Virus record (IMG/VR): IMGVR_UViG_3300046449_000164 | Location: 1 to 23,358 of that record | Origin: a virus | Reading direction: 5' to 3' (one strand) | Length of the DNA stretch: 23,358 bases | Shown here: piece by piece, positions 4,103 to 19,216 of the stretch | Layout of the letters: every line of letters begins with the position of its first letter | How positions within the stretch are numbered: the first letter of the stretch is position 1 | The notes under the pieces: model-generated | Database searches by the model: none | Seen by the model: the letters and a program-made list of their open reading frames with translations, nothing else | What the model was told of the DNA's origin: nothing | Position numbers and translations under genes: made by a program

Positions 4103-4585
4103 CTATTTGGTTGGCTTGTTTAATGCAAGGTTGCTATCAGTATATGAGGTGATTTGGTTATCCATTTTTTCAAGGGTATTCTCTTGGAAACTGAAACCAC
4201 GACCATCATGTGTTTCCTTATCTTTCTCATCAATAGCAACCACAGTTTGCGTTGCATTCAACGCTTCAGATGTTCGCTCAATAACCTGAAGTGTGTGGAA
4301 CAACACTCGCAGGCGATTTCCACTATGTACCGATGATACAAGACCTGAACGCTCTTCATTATTAAGCGGTTGACATGGTGCCAACATTTGTTGAATTACA
4401 GCACAGAAGGATTCATCATTATCACTTTCAAGATCTGATAGTGAAACATATTGTTCTTTCTTAACAAACTGGCCAACATCTGGGATATCTACAGGGAACA
4501 TGAAGTTCGCTTCAAGCATCTCAGCTGGTGTCCATACAAGTTTATTCGGAAATGCTGTTTCATTGGTTGTTGTTGTTTTAGTCAT
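4103..4585 (-). CDS. Hypothetical protein downstream of RNA polymerase
   Basis: A 160-aa protein I do not recognise. It begins with a Thr-rich stretch (MTKTTTTNET), then a segment with VWTPAEMLEANFMFPVDIP, a central helical-looking region (RLRVLFHTLQVIERTSEALN) and a polar tail. No signal peptide, membrane segment or zinc motif is visible. AGAGGT lies about 10 nt upstream of the ATG. It follows the RNA polymerase gene on the same strand after 75 nt, so it is probably transcribed with it from the host-type promoter at 7354-7382. A weak second promoter (TTGACT, 15 bp, TATAAG) can be read in the gap. An early gene acting on the host or on the switch to phage transcription would fit the position, but that is inference. 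Confidence 0.7.
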   Translation of the reverse strand: MTKTTTTNETAFPNKLVWTPAEMLEANFMFPVDIPDVGQFVKKEQYVSLSDLESDNDESFCAVIQQMLAPCQPLNNEERSGLVSSVHSGNRLRVLFHTLQVIERTSEALNATQTVVAIDEKDKETHDGRGFSFQENTLEKMDNQITSYTDSNLALNKPTK

Positions 4586-4625
4586 TCGGATTGGTACCTC
4601 TAAGTTAAGTTGGGTGTATCTTATA

Positions 4626-4655
4626 GCAGTTGGGTTGTTAAGTCAACCCAACTAC
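4626..4655 (-). other. Stem-loop between RNA polymerase and downstream gene
   Basis: Arms of 12 nt (core AGTTGGGTTG/CAACCCAACT perfect, extended by a G-U and a G-C pair) enclose a 6-nt loop ACTTAA. It starts just after the polymerase stop codon. There is no U-tract, so a simple intrinsic terminator is unlikely; an RNase III-type processing site or attenuator is possible. The loop side overlaps TTGACT of a weak sigma-70-like promoter reading left. Confidence 0.5.
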
Positions 4656-4660
4656 ACGGC

Positions 4661-7321
4661 TTATTTAAAACAAAATTCTGAATTTAACATTTCATCAGGG
4701 TTCCACTTACCTCTCTTAATCCCAAACTCCTCTGGGGACATCAACTCTCCAAGCATGTCAACATGGAAGTCATCACCAAACACATCTACCAAATGGGTTT
4801 CAAGTTGTGACCTAAAACCTAGGTAGAGATTCTGTAACACAGGGCCACCAAATAGGGAGATAAACTCCTCACGTATAATCCTGTTGAATAATACTGAGTG
4901 GCAACAATGTGCCCCCAGAGAATCATGTACCATCCACAGATTATCAATACCTTCAGTCTTACACCGTGCTGACACAGATACAATAACAGATGCATCAAAA
5001 CTGTGGACGATATCAGGAGCAACGCCTGACTTCATCTTGGCTATATCAAGTTCAGGGATTAACCGACCCTTATGGTCCTTCACCAACTTTGGTACTAACA
5101 CCGTGAATTTCTTTATCTCACCACTAGCACCGAATGGAACACGAAGCAACAGTGCCTTTTCCTTAGGTTTACTCATAGTAACATGAAAACCAATGGGTGT
5201 CTCCCACTTAACAGGTAGATTGTAGCTACCAAGCACACCAGCTACGTAGACAAAGTATTCCATCACAAGCCCAGCACCACGGATCACATTGTTGATAGAG
5301 TCATAAATAAGGCCACCCATTAGTGTTGATGGTGATACGTCTCCATCACGAAACATATCTTCCCAACCCCACTTCACGATACGCTCACCACAGTGTTTTA
5401 TATTTCCGTATCTTGTACCTGAATAGAACTTCACCATTACAGGCTTTTTTACCAAGTCACGGATAACCAAACAATACCGATGTTGTTCCACCTCAGAGAG
5501 CCTCAGGTACACGCTAAGGAATATATCCTCAACATCCACACCAGTAGCCCCAAGTTCACGGATAATGTCCTGAGATGTATTAGAGAGGATGTCCTCCTGT
5601 TCATCGGCCAACACACGGTTTATGGCACCAATTATATCTACCCGACCAAGCCAGTCCTGAGATAGTGGCTGATCAAATGTTTCTATCAACGAGCGTATTA
5701 CCTCTGCGGCACATGCCATGTAGAGATCCTGTACATCCCCGTCTAGCAAGTTTGTGTGCATCGCACCAATTTCATCAAGTGTGATTGCTGAGAGTATTTG
5801 TGCTCCAGAACAAGAAGCATCATTCTGGTCACACAGTCGGTGTAGGAAATCAAAATCCCCCTCACCGTGAGACTCCTTATATGATAACCAATCAACCCAC
5901 TCTTTGATCGCAACAAGGAACTGAAACGGTTTTGATGCGCTCATCCATTCCTTATTGTTTATTGGGTCTAATACACACTCACGCATCCACTGTGTCTCTC
6001 GTTCAACCCACTCAGCACCCTTCCCCCTTCTAAGCTTATCAGTCTTTACACCATCACCAGAATCTTTACCCCAGTGGTTACACACAGCCTTCTGTATAGC
6101 GTACACACCATCAGCACTTCCAATAGGAAGGGAGACAGCGAACTCAACAACAGCCTTCTGGAAATCAGAACCCTGTAAGTTTATACCAGTCATAGCTGAT
6201 GGGTATACACGACAACGGGTGTCGAGTGATGGTGGCCAGAACAACTCATCAAAGTGTTGTACCTCTTCCACAACGTCTAACATGGTCTGGTATGAACGAT
6301 CAAGAGATTTCTTACCCTCAACCTCTTTTAGGTGGAGATTTTTCTTATCCTTCCACCGAAAGAATGCCTTTCTCTTTGCTACAGAATCATCATCCTGATG
6401 TACCATAACATCAGTGACCGTCTCTTTTCCAGTCTTCTTGTTAACCTTAACCCCCTCCACTTTCTCCCAGAGGTATGCATCAGCTTCTCGGTCAACAGGG
6501 CATGGCTCATCGAACTCACCCTTTTCAACCATAAAAACCTTTTCAAGCTCCTTCGGTCTGATACCCTTTAACTGGGTACACACTCCAAAGATAAACTTAT
6601 TAACACGATACGGTGTATTCTGGATTTGGTTAAGGCCAGAATACAGGGTATCACCTCTTGGCTCTATGTGATCTGGGAGTCGTTTCACTAGAGGCTTGAA
6701 CTTTTTAGCCTGCTTAGATAGGTACCCACCACCAGACATAGCTGCCCACCCATCTGGCTTGTGCACCATAGGCATCATGCGTGGTCTTATGATATTGAAC
6801 ATAGCATGGTTATCCTCAACCATCTTCTCAAAAGCCTTGGTTGGTGAAATCATATGGGTTGTCTTTGTCTTTGACTCCCTTTTCAGACTAACACGGAATA
6901 ACTTAGGTAGTGCAAGAAGGACAAGATCAACGAGCTTAATACCTGCTGCAACTTTTAACTTAAGTATTGACTCATCAGCACTGTGTACATCTTCAGCCCG
7001 TTCATTTGCAAGGAGCAACCCAGCACCTGCAACTGCTGCAACAGAAACAACTGATGACTCACCAGACTGAGATAGGTAACCAACCACAGACTTGACACCA
7101 ATAGCTGCAACCTCATCAACTGACAACCCTTTGGTCAGCTTAAAGAATGGTGCTCTCTGTCTTTCAGTAGCTGTTATATACAACTCAATACGTGTTGATG
7201 TTTCAGAAATAAGGTTAACCAGCAAATCACAAGACTCATTCTCCCCAAGAAGTTCAAGTGTATCAGCTAATGATGTTCGCTGCATATCTTGCTTCTCTCT
7301 GGCTAATTGAATATCTCGCAT
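4661..7321 (-). CDS. Single-subunit DNA-dependent RNA polymerase, T7 type
   Basis: This 886-aa protein matches the length of T7 RNA polymerase (883 aa) and carries its catalytic motifs. Motif A is CDQNDASCSGAQILSA, with D501 in the place of T7 D537. Motif B has R621, K625 and Y633, spaced as T7 R627, K631 and Y639. Motif C is WMVHDSLG, with D800 matching T7 D812. Other shared blocks are DTRCRVYPSAM and NLQGSD (about 367-385), APDIVHSFDAS (768-778), and the C-terminal SEFCFK resembling the T7 FAFA foot. The enzyme should transcribe phage genes from its own promoters; the 31-bp repeat is the best candidate. GAGGGAG lies about 10 nt upstream of the start. A near-consensus sigma-70 promoter at 7354-7382 should drive it early. 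No motif is missing or broken. Confidence 0.96.
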   Translation of the reverse strand: MRDIQLAREKQDMQRTSLADTLELLGENESCDLLVNLISETSTRIELYITATERQRAPFFKLTKGLSVDEVAAIGVKSVVGYLSQSGESSVVSVAAVAGAGLLLANERAEDVHSADESILKLKVAAGIKLVDLVLLALPKLFRVSLKRESKTKTTHMISPTKAFEKMVEDNHAMFNIIRPRMMPMVHKPDGWAAMSGGGYLSKQAKKFKPLVKRLPDHIEPRGDTLYSGLNQIQNTPYRVNKFIFGVCTQLKGIRPKELEKVFMVEKGEFDEPCPVDREADAYLWEKVEGVKVNKKTGKETVTDVMVHQDDDSVAKRKAFFRWKDKKNLHLKEVEGKKSLDRSYQTMLDVVEEVQHFDELFWPPSLDTRCRVYPSAMTGINLQGSDFQKAVVEFAVSLPIGSADGVYAIQKAVCNHWGKDSGDGVKTDKLRRGKGAEWVERETQWMRECVLDPINNKEWMSASKPFQFLVAIKEWVDWLSYKESHGEGDFDFLHRLCDQNDASCSGAQILSAITLDEIGAMHTNLLDGDVQDLYMACAAEVIRSLIETFDQPLSQDWLGRVDIIGAINRVLADEQEDILSNTSQDIIRELGATGVDVEDIFLSVYLRLSEVEQHRYCLVIRDLVKKPVMVKFYSGTRYGNIKHCGERIVKWGWEDMFRDGDVSPSTLMGGLIYDSINNVIRGAGLVMEYFVYVAGVLGSYNLPVKWETPIGFHVTMSKPKEKALLLRVPFGASGEIKKFTVLVPKLVKDHKGRLIPELDIAKMKSGVAPDIVHSFDASVIVSVSARCKTEGIDNLWMVHDSLGAHCCHSVLFNRIIREEFISLFGGPVLQNLYLGFRSQLETHLVDVFGDDFHVDMLGELMSPEEFGIKRGKWNPDEMLNSEFCFK

Positions 7322-11010: not shown

Positions 11011-13269
11011 ATGACTGAATTTTCTAAAAACGTGAAAGGTTCCTCGCAGACAATGGATGCGGAATCTAATGGCCTATTAGAGCCAAAGTTAAAATTTGCA
11101 GCGGGAGTGTTGACTATCGCCCCTGCTGCAACCCGCATTTGGATGGTATGCCACAAAGATAATAAAACTGGAGAGTGTAATGATTTTATTGATGATGAGT
11201 GCCTTAAAGAGCACGGTCGGTCAATTAGAAGACACAACCGACTCTCTAATCGATCAGGTACTAATGTTTACCCATTAAGCCTCTTACCAGCTTTCTATGA
11301 AGAAGTTGGCCAGATAACTGGCCACAACCTTATGAAGTTTGACGCCCCACTTATTGAAAAGATTGTTGGGTATCACATTCCAAGAGAAAAGCGGTGGGAT
11401 ACACTATTACAATCGCAAACCCAGTTCTGTGATAGGGATTATGTTTTCGGGTCAACATCCGGCCCCCACTCCGTTGAAAGCTGGGCACTCCGTATAAACA
11501 AAGGTACGAAGGTCGAGCATGAAGATTGGATGAACTTCAGTCTTGATATGTATAAACGTTGTTGGCGAGATGTTGAGGTACAGGTTGATATAAAAACAGC
11601 ACTAGATGATGAACGTGAAGTTGATCGGATAGAGTGTAATATTGACTGGACAGAATCACTCCGTACAGAACACATGGCTGCATTCTGGATATCATATTCA
11701 GAAAAGTGGGGATTTCCTTGTAACAAACAACATGCTGAAAAATTGGTAGAAACCCTAGATGCAAGTCTTGAAAAGATCGAGGATGAGCTACTACCAAATA
11801 TGCCATTCAGAATAAACTTTGATCACTGTGGGACAAAGATCAATTGGGAAAAGTATTGTGAAGGAATGCTTAAGCAGTCTGGATTAACACAAATCCCACT
11901 TGGGTGGTGTTGGGCAGAAGACTCTTCGAATAAACCCTCACCAATTTGGCAGCCATTTAAGGCTAATGGTGAGTGTAAAGAGTCTGTTAAGGATTTCTGG
12001 AATGGAAAGCCTGCACAACCAGAGATACCAGCCGAACCGGAAAGGTTTGCAACACCAGCACAACTCGATGAAAAGGGTAAGATTGTTGTAAAAGCAATAC
12101 GTGCAAGAAAGGCCAGACCATTAGTGGAAGCGAAGGATAGAAAACCAAACGCATATGAAGATGATGCGGGGCTTACTGACCCACCACTAGTAAGATTCAC
12201 ACATGAAGATGTAGGGGGACCATTCACACGTCTCCGGTGGAACAACTATAACCTTGGGTCCAATGATCAGGTGTTGGAGTACCTACTGAGGTACACGAGC
12301 TGGGAACCAGTTGAGTATACTGACAAGGGAAATCCACGATTAACTGATGACAGCTTTGACTCCATTGGTGAAGACGGTATCGGACAAATGTTGAAGGACT
12401 ATTTAATTGACAAGTCAAGAAGGACAAGTGTTAAAAACTTCAAAGATGAGTCAAAGGGATGGCTAAATCTTCTAAGGGATGATGGTCGTATAACACCACT
12501 CAACCATACAATGGGTACACCAACAGCACGAAGCAGACATGCCAACTTAGTAAATGTCCCTTCTGGGGGTGCTAAGTGGGGTAGGGAGATGCGAGAGTGC
12601 TGGACTGCATATGAGAATGGTAAGATGATTGGCAGTGATGCTAGTGGACTTGAAATGCGTTGTCTTGCACATGAGATGGGTGATGAAGAGTGTACTAACG
12701 AAATTGTTGATGGTGACATCCATACGGTAATTTGGGAATTAATACCAGACTTCTCTAACAGTCGTGGGAGCACTAAGGGTATCGAGTATTGTTTGATCTA
12801 TGGAGGATCTGATACAAAATTAGGATCTCTCGCCAACGTTGATGGTTGTCGAGATGAGTTCTCTTCGGTGGAAAAACTACTGCTACGTGGGTGGGTCAGA
12901 GATGGGGACTTATGGAGACATAAGAACTGGAGTCCTAAGAAGGAATCACTGACGTATAAGGCAGCACAAGATACTGTGTGTGGATCTATTATCCGTATGC
13001 GGATCATGAAAGGTCTTAAGCCACTTGGTGATTGTATTGAGCGTATAACGAAACAGGCCGAGAAGGGGTTCCTTGTTGGATTGGATGGTAGAAAGCTTAC
13101 AGTACGATCAACACATAGTGCACTAAACCTTAAGCTACAATCGACTGGTGCAATTCTTATGAAGACAGCGCTGGTAAGTCTCATGGAGAGACTAGAAACT
13201 GATGGGCTGGTAAGTATAACGGATGGGTATAAACCTAATTCGTTTGTTGAACTATTCACTTTTTACCAT
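11011..13269 (+). CDS. DNA polymerase family A, exon 1
   Basis: Exon 1 encodes residues 1-753 of a spliced 872-aa T7-like DNA polymerase. The 3'-5' exonuclease domain has Exo I MDAESNGL (D16, E18), Exo II HNLMKFD (N106, D111) and an Exo III-like RCWRD187, where the usual Tyr is Arg. The polymerase domain has TPTARSRHANLVNVP (503-517), motif A GSDASGLEMR (D543) and motif B R585...K589...Y593; the Tyr corresponds to T7 Y526. Just before the break comes LNLKLQSTGAILMKTAL, matching the T7 helix before motif C. The exon ends in FYH, whose His is the first residue of the HDE motif. In the unspliced reading two more codons (AAA, TAA) end the frame at 13275. GGAGGG precedes the ATG. Confidence 0.93.
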
Positions 13270-14098
13270 AAATAACATTGTGGTGCTACATGGTGACATG
13301 TAGTAGAAAACCTTCTTAATTGCTGGAATGCTTACCTAGGCAAAACAACTATTGTCGATAGATAAAAGTTGCAAGCTAGTAGAAGTTAATCAGCAGCGAG
13401 GAGATAGATATGAAAGTACTCTACGGGTATAAGATATTGGAAGATGGTACGGTTTTAAGTAAAAGATTCGGCACACCACTTAGTTGGTGTGATAATGGGA
13501 AGGGCTATATGATTAGTGCTATTTCCATTAATGGGGTAAGAAAAGCTGTATCCCACCACATCCTAGTAGCTAAAGCTTACCACGGAGAATGTCCTGAGGG
13601 TTATGAGGTTGGTCATATAGATGACAACAGAAGAAATAACCACCCAAGTAATTTGGAATATGTTACAAAATCAGAAAATAACCAACAGAGTTGGGATAAC
13701 AGGAATAGAAGTGCCACAGGCGTAGAAAATTCCAACTGTAAAATCACGGAAGATCAGGTAAGGGAGATTTGCATCTCATTACAAGATCAGAAGGGTTGTA
13801 ATATATCCAAGTTGTCAAGAGATTTTAAAATCGAGAGAGGGACGATCCAAGCCATCAAATGTAGGCGGCAGTGGATACACATCTCACAAGATTATATATT
13901 TATCTAAACGTTCACAGACTATCGAAAGGCAGCAACAGCTGAACCGAGTAGAGTACGGCCCGAGTGGGTGCCTCACGGCTTAAATGGAAATTGAAGGGAT
14001 CTCAAGTGAGATCATAATATAGTCGCATTCTCCTAGAAATAGGGGGCAGCACATAATTAGTGCGGGGTAGGAGATAACGTTCTTACCTGAAGATAATG
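13270..14098 (+). ncRNA. Group I self-splicing intron in the DNA polymerase gene
   Basis: This 829-nt group I intron has all the core elements. P1: exon end TACCAT (13264-13269) pairs with internal guide GTGGTG (13280-13285), with the required U-G pair at the splice site. P10: CATT (13276-13279) pairs with exon 2 GATG. P2: CTACATG-GTGA-CATGTAG (13286-13303). P element AATTGCTGGAA (13318-13328) and Q element AATCAGCAGC (13388-13397). R element GTTCACAGACTA (13910-13921) and S element ATAATATAGTCG (14014-14025), forming P7. P8-side hairpin GATCTC-AAGT-GAGATC precedes S; a GAAA-loop hairpin (CTCCTA/TAGGGG) follows. The intron ends in G14098. The HNH gene sits between Q and R, that is in the P6 region. 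Insertion is phase 0, between His and Asp codons. Confidence 0.93.
13410..13907 (+). CDS. Intron-encoded HNH homing endonuclease
   Basis: A 165-aa protein encoded inside the group I intron. The HNH core runs from HHILVAKAYHG (49-59) through VGHIDDNRRNNHPSNLEYV (67-85), with H49/H50, H69, D71/D72 and N76/N77/N81 as candidate metal and catalytic residues. The C-terminal part (about 130-155, ISKLSRDFKIERGTIQAIK) looks like a helix-turn-helix for DNA recognition, as in other phage HNH intron enzymes. Such enzymes cut intron-less alleles so the intron is copied in. GAGGAG lies about 7 nt upstream of the ATG. The stop at 13905-13907 lies 2 nt before the R element, so the gene fills the P6 loop without harming the catalytic core. 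It seems intact, so the intron may still be mobile. Confidence 0.9.
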   Translation: MKVLYGYKILEDGTVLSKRFGTPLSWCDNGKGYMISAISINGVRKAVSHHILVAKAYHGECPEGYEVGHIDDNRRNNHPSNLEYVTKSENNQQSWDNRNRSATGVENSNCKITEDQVREICISLQDQKGCNISKLSRDFKIERGTIQAIKCRRQWIHISQDYIFI

Positions 14099-14458
14099 GA
14101 TGAATACCAATTTGGCGTACCAGAAAAGTCATATGAGGAACACAAGGTTTTTGATGTTGATGTTTCTATGTTCCCACTTGGTAGTGATGACAAAAAAGAG
14201 GCCAAGGCTGCAAAGGATGCTGCAAAGGATAAAATTAAAAAAGTTGTAGCTCGATTCCAGAGAAGACAACGGAAAAATGATGGGAAGATTTGGTCTGAAC
14301 CATTTATTGACGTAAAAGCTGGCACAGCAGAAATCATATACTGCAAAGTTGGACAATATTGTGTGGAGGGATTTGAGGCAGCAGGTAAATACTTCAAAAT
14401 GGATTGTCCTATAACAGGCAATTACATGTGGGGTGATAATTGGTTCGACACTCACTAA
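14099..14458 (+). CDS. DNA polymerase family A, exon 2
   Basis: Exon 2 encodes residues 754-872. It starts with DEYQFGV, which joins the His of exon 1 to give HDEYQFGV, the catalytic motif C. It ends CPITGNYMWGDNWFDTH, like the T7 polymerase C-terminus (GKMGPNWAICH). A Lys/Ala-rich helix (about KKEAKAAKDAAKDK) lies between. An ATG at 14096 spans the splice junction and would make an apparent 120-aa protein; it has no ribosome binding site and would lack the His, so it should not be annotated as a gene. The next upstream in-frame codon block has a TAA at 14075, inside the intron. Confidence 0.92.
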   Translation, partial: DEYQFGVPEKSYEEHKVFDVDVSMFPLGSDDKKEAKAAKDAAKDKIKKVVARFQRRQRKNDGKIWSEPFIDVKAGTAEIIYCKVGQYCVEGFEAAGKYFKMDCPITGNYMWGDNWFDTH

Positions 14459-17539: not shown

Positions 17540-19216
17540 ATGGGGAAGAAAGGTTTCGATCACGAGACACTGCTGGAGATTGCTAGTCAAGACAAAGCGG
17601 GGGTGAGTGGAAGAAAGATTGCAGAAAGCTTGGGTCTTCATCATAGTAATGTGTGTCGGTTCTTAGCACGTGAGACGCATCTAGGGTTCTGGGAGAAGTA
17701 TACAGGGAAACCACTTGCAGCTGGGTCACTTAACAAGCCACACCTTAAACGTGGGAAAATGTCATCTGATAAGAAGGCATTTATCTTCACATCGGCACAG
17801 AACAACACGTTTGTTCACAGCAAGCTCCTCAAAACACTTCAGGTGATTTCTGGTCGACTAAATGCACCAATTGTTGTTGGGACGTTTACATACGACAAGG
17901 GGGCATATCAGAAGCTCCAGAAGGGTGATAGTTGGTATGCACCAGAGCTTCGTCAGTACATAAATGACGAATCAACTCAGGTTGCTGATGATTTGGTGTG
18001 GTGTGGTGAATTGAACATTCTCCCAACAGCAGCTAATCCGATCTCTGGGCTACAAAATTACACTGGATCAGCAAGCTCTATCATCCCACATTCAAAGGTA
18101 AATCTTGAAAGTGTTGCCTCTCACAAAGGTAAGTCAGCAAAGATGGTTTACACCACCGGATGTGTTACTCAGTCAAACTTTGTTAAAAAGAAGGCTGGGC
18201 AGAAGGCTGAGCACCACCATATTTATGGTGCCCTTTTGGTTGAGATTGACAAAGATGGTACATGGTTTGCGAGACAGCTCATTGCTGAGACCCACACGGG
18301 TAACGTATATGACCTTGATACGTACTACACCCCCGAGGGCTTTACCACTGGCCACCGTGTCATGGGGATCAACTGGGGTGATATCCACGCAGAAAAACTC
18401 TGTCCGGTTGTGGGTGCTGTATCCTTTGGTGTTGCTATGGCTGATGAAGCCAGTATGCCCCATCAGGTTGAGGGGCCTAACATGCTTGATGACTTGAGAC
18501 CCCATCACATGTTCTACCACGACCTGACAGATTTCAAGGTGAGAAATCATCACAACCGAAAGAACCCACTTTTCAAAATTGCAATGATGTATGCAAAGAC
18601 AGAAGAAGTTTCTTATGGTCTTGAGCAGGCTGGCAAGGTGTTGGAATTAACATCACGACCTTGGTGTCAATCTGTGGTTGTTAACTCAAACCATGATGCT
18701 GCTTTGCAGAAATGGGCTACAGAGATTACATGGGGTGAAGATCCTATCAATGCCGAGTTCTTACTTTCCTGTCAGCTGAAGCTGGTACGGGCTATTAAGG
18801 ACAAGGATTCAAACTTCTGCATCTTTGAGGATTCATTAAAGGGCCTTAACGGGACCATTGATGATGTAAAATTCCTTCGACTAGATGAGAGCTACCGTAT
18901 CTGCGGTGACAATGGTATCCAATGCGGGTTCCATGGCCATACAGGTAACAATGGTGCCCGTGGTTCAACGCAATCTTATCGGTTGGCTGGAGAGCGTTTC
19001 AATATCGGCCATCAGCACTCCGCAAACATCCGTGATGGGGTTTATGTTGCTGGTGTGTCTGGTAAGTTGGATATGGGGTACAACGTTGGTATGGGTGGCT
19101 GGTCGCAGTCTCACATTGTAACGTACAAAAATGCTAAGCGTGCGATTATTACTATCAAAGGTAGTCGGTATAAAGCCAAACACCACTACATTGATGGGAA
19201 GTGGATCATCTTATAA
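17540..19216 (+). CDS. Metallophosphoesterase with N-terminal helix-turn-helix, possibly T5 A1-like
   Basis: A 558-aa protein. Residues about 10-45 (ASQDKAGVSGRKIAESLGLH) look like a resolvase-type helix-turn-helix. From about 275 the motifs of calcineurin-like phosphoesterases appear in order: GDIH (280-283), an Asp/His-rich stretch HHMFYHDLTDFKVRNHHN (322-339), NSNHD (382-386), GFHGHTGNNG (463-472) and GHQHS (490-494). These would bind two metal ions, as in Mre11/SbcD nucleases. The length and motif set recall the A1 protein of phage T5, which takes part in host DNA breakdown; I hold this as likely but unproven. It starts 1 nt after the resolvase stop with AAAAGGGG upstream. A nuclease feeding host nucleotides to the phage would fit the dNMP kinase that follows. 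Confidence 0.6.
   Translation: MGKKGFDHETLLEIASQDKAGVSGRKIAESLGLHHSNVCRFLARETHLGFWEKYTGKPLAAGSLNKPHLKRGKMSSDKKAFIFTSAQNNTFVHSKLLKTLQVISGRLNAPIVVGTFTYDKGAYQKLQKGDSWYAPELRQYINDESTQVADDLVWCGELNILPTAANPISGLQNYTGSASSIIPHSKVNLESVASHKGKSAKMVYTTGCVTQSNFVKKKAGQKAEHHHIYGALLVEIDKDGTWFARQLIAETHTGNVYDLDTYYTPEGFTTGHRVMGINWGDIHAEKLCPVVGAVSFGVAMADEASMPHQVEGPNMLDDLRPHHMFYHDLTDFKVRNHHNRKNPLFKIAMMYAKTEEVSYGLEQAGKVLELTSRPWCQSVVVNSNHDAALQKWATEITWGEDPINAEFLLSCQLKLVRAIKDKDSNFCIFEDSLKGLNGTIDDVKFLRLDESYRICGDNGIQCGFHGHTGNNGARGSTQSYRLAGERFNIGHQHSANIRDGVYVAGVSGKLDMGYNVGMGGWSQSHIVTYKNAKRAIITIKGSRYKAKHHYIDGKWIIL

Follow-up and report, generated by a model that had tools for sequence, protein, structure and literature searches.

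Introns at one position of the DNA polymerase gene have been described in several phage groups. The T7-like phages phiI and W31 carry them at E. coli position 881, with endonuclease genes in P6a (PMC3428280, 2012). In Pectobacterium phage CB7, splicing of CB7_50 has been reported on the basis of RT-PCR (PMC7344957), and the CB7 record identifies the CB7_50 intron as the one lying between the His and the Asp-Glu of polymerase motif C (hereafter, the H/DE site). For Shewanella phage KASIA, spliced cDNA has been reported at the level of the polymerase gene, which has two introns; the same work reports no introns in Colwellia phage 9A (PMC8541194).

The locus analyzed here lies on a 23,358-base fragment from an uncultured virus record, the whole of which we refer to as the window. 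Our analysis indicates that its family-A DNA polymerase gene is almost certainly interrupted in motif C by a mobile group I intron that probably belongs to subgroup IA2 and carries an HNH homing endonuclease gene in its P6a loop. The anatomy of the element, its homology, the covariation of its helices, the empty site in a relative and the same-site relatives were established directly. The features of the locus are, in window coordinates:

11011-13269, + strand: exon 1 of the family-A DNA polymerase, 753 codons, ending ...LFTFYH (motif C His); Pfam DNA_pol_A, 9A alignment
13264-13269, + strand: P1 5' strand UACCAU in exon 1, U.G at the splice site; 6/6 pairs with 13280-13285
13270-14098, + strand: group I intron, 829 nt, starting AAATAA and ending G; same-site introns, covariation over 11 distinct introns including the window's, covariance model
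13276-13279, + strand: P10 strand CAUU, partner GAUG of exon 2 (14099-14102); 4/4 pairs in the window, 43/44 cells over 11 introns
13280-13285, + strand: internal guide sequence GUGGUG, the P1 3' strand; pairing with the exon 1 end
13286-13303, + strand: P2 hairpin CUACAUG-GUGA-CAUGUAG; 7/7 pairs, double changes in 6/7 columns
13311-13315, + strand: P3 5' strand CCUUC, partner 13993-13997; 65/66 cells over 11 introns, compensatory changes in 5/6 columns
13321-13326, + strand: P4 5' strand UGCUGG (element P), partner 13390-13395; pairing across introns
13390-13395, + strand: P4 3' strand UCAGCA (element Q); pairing across introns
13396-13398, + strand: P6 5' strand GCG, partner CGU (13909-13911); third pair covaries as G-C, C-G or U-A in relatives
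13403-13410, + strand: P6a 5' strand GAUAGAUA, partner 13897-13904, bracketing the HNH gene; direct sequence reading
13410-13907, + strand: HNH homing endonuclease gene, 165 aa, in the P6a loop; Pfam HNH_3 E=7.5e-17, PHROG 59 E=7e-31
13917-13921, + strand: P7 5' strand GACUA (element R), partner 14020-14024; 55/55 cells over 11 introns
13993-13997, + strand: P3 3' strand GAAGG; pairs with 13311-13315
13998-14013, + strand: P8 hairpin GAUCUC-AAGU-GAGAUC; 6/6 pairs, double changes in 6/6 columns
14020-14024, + strand: P7 3' strand UAGUC (element S); pairs with 13917-13921
14030-14045, + strand: P9 hairpin with GAAA loop; 6/6 pairs, double changes in 6/6 columns
14049-14063, + strand: P9.1 hairpin GCAC...GUGC; predicted fold
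14066-14087, + strand: P9.2 hairpin GGUAGGA...UCUUACC; predicted fold
14099-14458, + strand: exon 2, 119 codons plus stop, beginning DEYQFGV (motif C Asp-Glu); 9A alignment, same-site relatives

Left unspliced, the polymerase frame (11011-13275, Pfam DNA_pol_A) terminates in HK-stop, and a second frame from 14096 reads MDEYQFGV..., its ATG (14096-14098) consisting of the final three intron bases. Excision of 13270-14098 fuses CAT to GATGAA, and the resulting 872-aa product is 58% identical over its full length to the single-gene polymerase of 9A, in an alignment that continues unbroken over the junction, including YHDELQFGVPE. Splicing also gains a second DNA_pol_A stretch, with a score of 74.3 bits versus 67.8 bits unspliced. 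Because the spliced protein aligns with 9A continuously over the junction and gains DNA_pol_A score, the junction proposed in an earlier note on this DNA is confirmed to the single base: exon 1 ends with CAT (His753) and exon 2 starts with GATGAA, restoring HDEYQFGV, in agreement with the same-site relatives. The intronless 9A gene and the same-site introns likewise bear out its claim of an 829-nt intron between the His and the Asp-Glu, and it was right that the existing annotation yields a polymerase missing motif C, exon 1 alone being without its Asp-Glu, together with a false 120-aa ORF, whose start codon is intronic. A single 872-aa polymerase thus replaces a truncated enzyme and a spurious 120-aa gene. 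Of the alignment to T7-like polymerases that the note had envisaged, continuity across the junction held against 9A; the closest polymerases, however, come from siphophages, namely Colwellia 9A and Shewanella KASIA, rather than from T7-like podophages. Queries of viral contigs with exon 1 retrieved distant polymerases only.

The splice signals are those expected of a group I intron. The 5' splice site is marked by the U13269.G13280 pair, and G14098 is the terminal intron base. Both the P1 pairing proposed earlier (TACCAT with GTGGTG, U-G at the junction) and the P10 pairing (GATG with CATT) are complete, although in the relatives conservation of P1 extends to the inner four pairs only (CCAU/GUGG). 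The P, Q, R and S elements named in the note are all there, P and Q forming P4 and R and S forming P7, together with P3, P6, P8 and P9; the window hence presents a P3, P4, P6, P7 and P8 core with a paired, G-binding P7. A single U-U mismatch closes the inner end of P3; all other pairs of P2, P3, P7, P8 and P9 hold. The hallmark of subgroup IA2 is the presence of P7.1 and P7.2 between P7 and P3, linked by GUA. In the window, the interval between the P7 5' and P3 3' strands spans approximately 70 nt and contains the shared GAGUAGAGUA motif. IA2 is a probable assignment for the intron.

Introns with an in-frame H/DE junction were taken from metagenomic phages and from phages of the rV5-like, Seunavirus, phiTE and Vibrio groups; covariation was assessed over 11 distinct introns, the window's included (10 for P2, 9 for P4). 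Because MAFFT misplaced the R element in the short Vequintavirinae introns, helices of the 11 introns were aligned by hand and the covariance model was limited to five. Helix segments were picked by eye, so that the counts lean towards the model, and since hand alignment may flatter pairing, we added strand-swap and slide controls, for which P1 and P10 are too invariant. In the hand alignment, pairing was observed in 62/70 (P2, 10 introns), 65/66 (P3), 64/66 (P8) and 63/66 (P9) cells, with double changes in 6/7, 5/6, 6/6 and 6/6 columns, respectively, and none of 2000 strand swaps equaled the observed pairing for any of these four helices. P7 paired in 55/55 cells (matched by 3/2000 swaps) and P4 in 52/54 (14/2000). 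When the 3' strand was shifted by 1-3 bases, pairing was lost in P3, P7 and P8 alike, slid partners reaching 36-43/66 cells in P3 and at most 11/30 in P7 (on a subset of six introns).

The covariance model, built from five relatives with the window excluded, matched 13910-14047 at E = 1.6e-13, the next match in the window lying at E = 0.47, and folding of the ORF-deleted intron yielded z = -4.3 versus shuffled sequences. An Rfam search of the window at the gathering score returned no match; at a relaxed score, RF00028 reached 29.5 bits against a cut-off of 50, in a poor alignment with the 5' half misplaced. The low score probably reflects the position of the HNH gene, which divides the core in two. 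The RF00028 gathering score governs detection and does not define a group I intron structurally. The covariance search over 13260-14100 suggested by the note had a divided outcome, with Rfam falling short of its cut-off and the relatives-built model identifying the 3' core.

Viral contigs screened for the conserved intron start yielded further same-site introns. The H/DE site is occupied in Shewanella phage KASIA, rV5-like Vequintavirinae, Pectobacterium phages phiTE and CB7, and Vibrio and metagenomic phages, with cargo consisting of an HNH gene of the window's family, a different HNH gene, a LAGLIDADG gene or none: one fixed site with variable endonuclease cargo. In one viral contig (L014, 10997-11915, + strand), the same-site intron carries a LAGLIDADG_2 gene downstream of the P7 5' strand in place of an HNH gene in P6a: the insertion site is unchanged, but the endonuclease has been swapped. 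In KASIA (L001), part of the first polymerase intron (4217-5478) matches the second (6022-6303), which hints at one intron spreading within a gene.

The HNH protein gave a weak match to the I-HmuI structure 1u3e (E=0.0019), and a query of viral contigs with it returned one distant locus only. Its gene lies in the P6a loop, the P6a stem (13403-13410 with 13897-13904) being built from the first base and the last codons of the reading frame, as read directly from the sequence. The HNH_3 and PHROG 59 matches and the core surrounding the gene support the note's placement of an HNH gene within a group I intron at motif C. Judging from its enzyme family, the putative nuclease would promote homing: it probably acts on intronless alleles, cleaving or nicking them close to motif C, whereupon the intron would be copied in by recombination. 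Mobility is supported by the occurrence of related intron cores among phages whose polymerases are approximately 30% identical around the site. It is conceivable, though unlikely, that the enzyme doubles as a weapon, cutting the active-site codons of co-infecting intronless phages and blocking their replication, with a motif as its target that escape mutants would find hard to alter. The analogy is with PhiPA3, for which an intron endonuclease is reported to interfere in this way between co-infecting phages (PMC11620839).

The window copy would, on sequence grounds, be spliced by the standard pathway, its P1 U.G pair, P10 and terminal G being the expected signals for two transesterifications. 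A guanosine bound at P7 would attack after U13269 of the P1 U.G pair, and the freed exon 1 end would then attack after G14098, so that CAT is ligated to GATGAA and HDE is re-formed. The first three intron bases are followed by a UAA in frame with exon 1, a feature of 12 of the 13 introns compared (in the remaining one, the first in-frame stop lies at 24 bases); this codon presumably stops ribosomes ahead of the core, and such stops may allow RNA folding free of ribosomes (review, PMC3984707).

Non-splicing HNH introns do occur in phages, as illustrated by CB7_245 (PMC7344957), and the P3 mismatch could be taken as a sign that splicing has been lost, leaving the phage with a split or truncated polymerase. 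We consider this very improbable: every other core pair is intact and covaries with the relatives, both exons are open and conserved, the HNH frame is intact, and exon 1 alone would leave an essential gene without the motif C Asp-Glu. More improbable still is a natural split polymerase, with two subunit genes flanking an HNH gene and no RNA splicing. Gene callers would give the same output for such an arrangement, and Aeromonas phages do have annotated split polymerase genes, but here the gap is spanned by a group I core, joining the exons re-creates the 9A reading frame exactly, and splicing is reported for same-site relatives. The reading as a group I homing intron with an HNH gene in motif C, which the note had advanced, is supported by same-site and intronless relatives, by covariation and by published RT-PCR on same-site relatives. 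An intein was ruled out by the stop codon that lies three bases inside the insert.

Elsewhere, the window encodes a T7-type single-subunit RNA polymerase (4661-7321, - strand) in what is a 9A/KASIA-like siphophage, and the KASIA paper describes such enzymes as very rare in siphoviruses (PMC8541194). Its large terminase gene (1022-2590, - strand) is uninterrupted; in KASIA, an HNH intron splits this gene. The replication module includes a 558-aa protein (17540-19216, + strand) that matches PHROG 1745, 'DNA transfer protein', at E=1e-171 and has no Pfam match.

Among described systems, the second KASIA intron shares the identical site (FTFYH/DEFQFGV) and a related core, in the polymerase closest by identity, but it is 282 nt long and lacks an endonuclease; KASIA also has an extra intron, at IHTV/IW, that the window lacks. 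The CB7 and phiTE (Vequintavirinae) introns share the H/DE site, an intronic HNH gene and a homologous core, but differ in length (687 nt), in encoding a different, shorter HNH protein and in a polymerase only ~33% identical around the site. The T7-like phiI/W31 introns (I-TslI) resemble the window's in their HNH gene in P6a and, by published position, in their site: residue 881 of the E. coli enzyme is the His of motif C, with Asp882-Glu883 next to it. They are IA2 introns, the probable subgroup of the window's as well. The introns of SPO1, Bastille and Pf-WMP3 (I-HmuI, I-BasI and I-PfoP3I) are likewise HNH-bearing group I introns of family-A phage polymerases, but are inserted at E. coli position 674, outside motif C (PMC3428280). 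Since phiI/W31, CB7 and KASIA establish both site and architecture, which are already known and widely occupied, the window intron joins an existing homing-intron family. Within the 9A/KASIA lineage it is a clear instance of an intron whose core recurs in phages with polymerases sharing only ~30% identity around the site.
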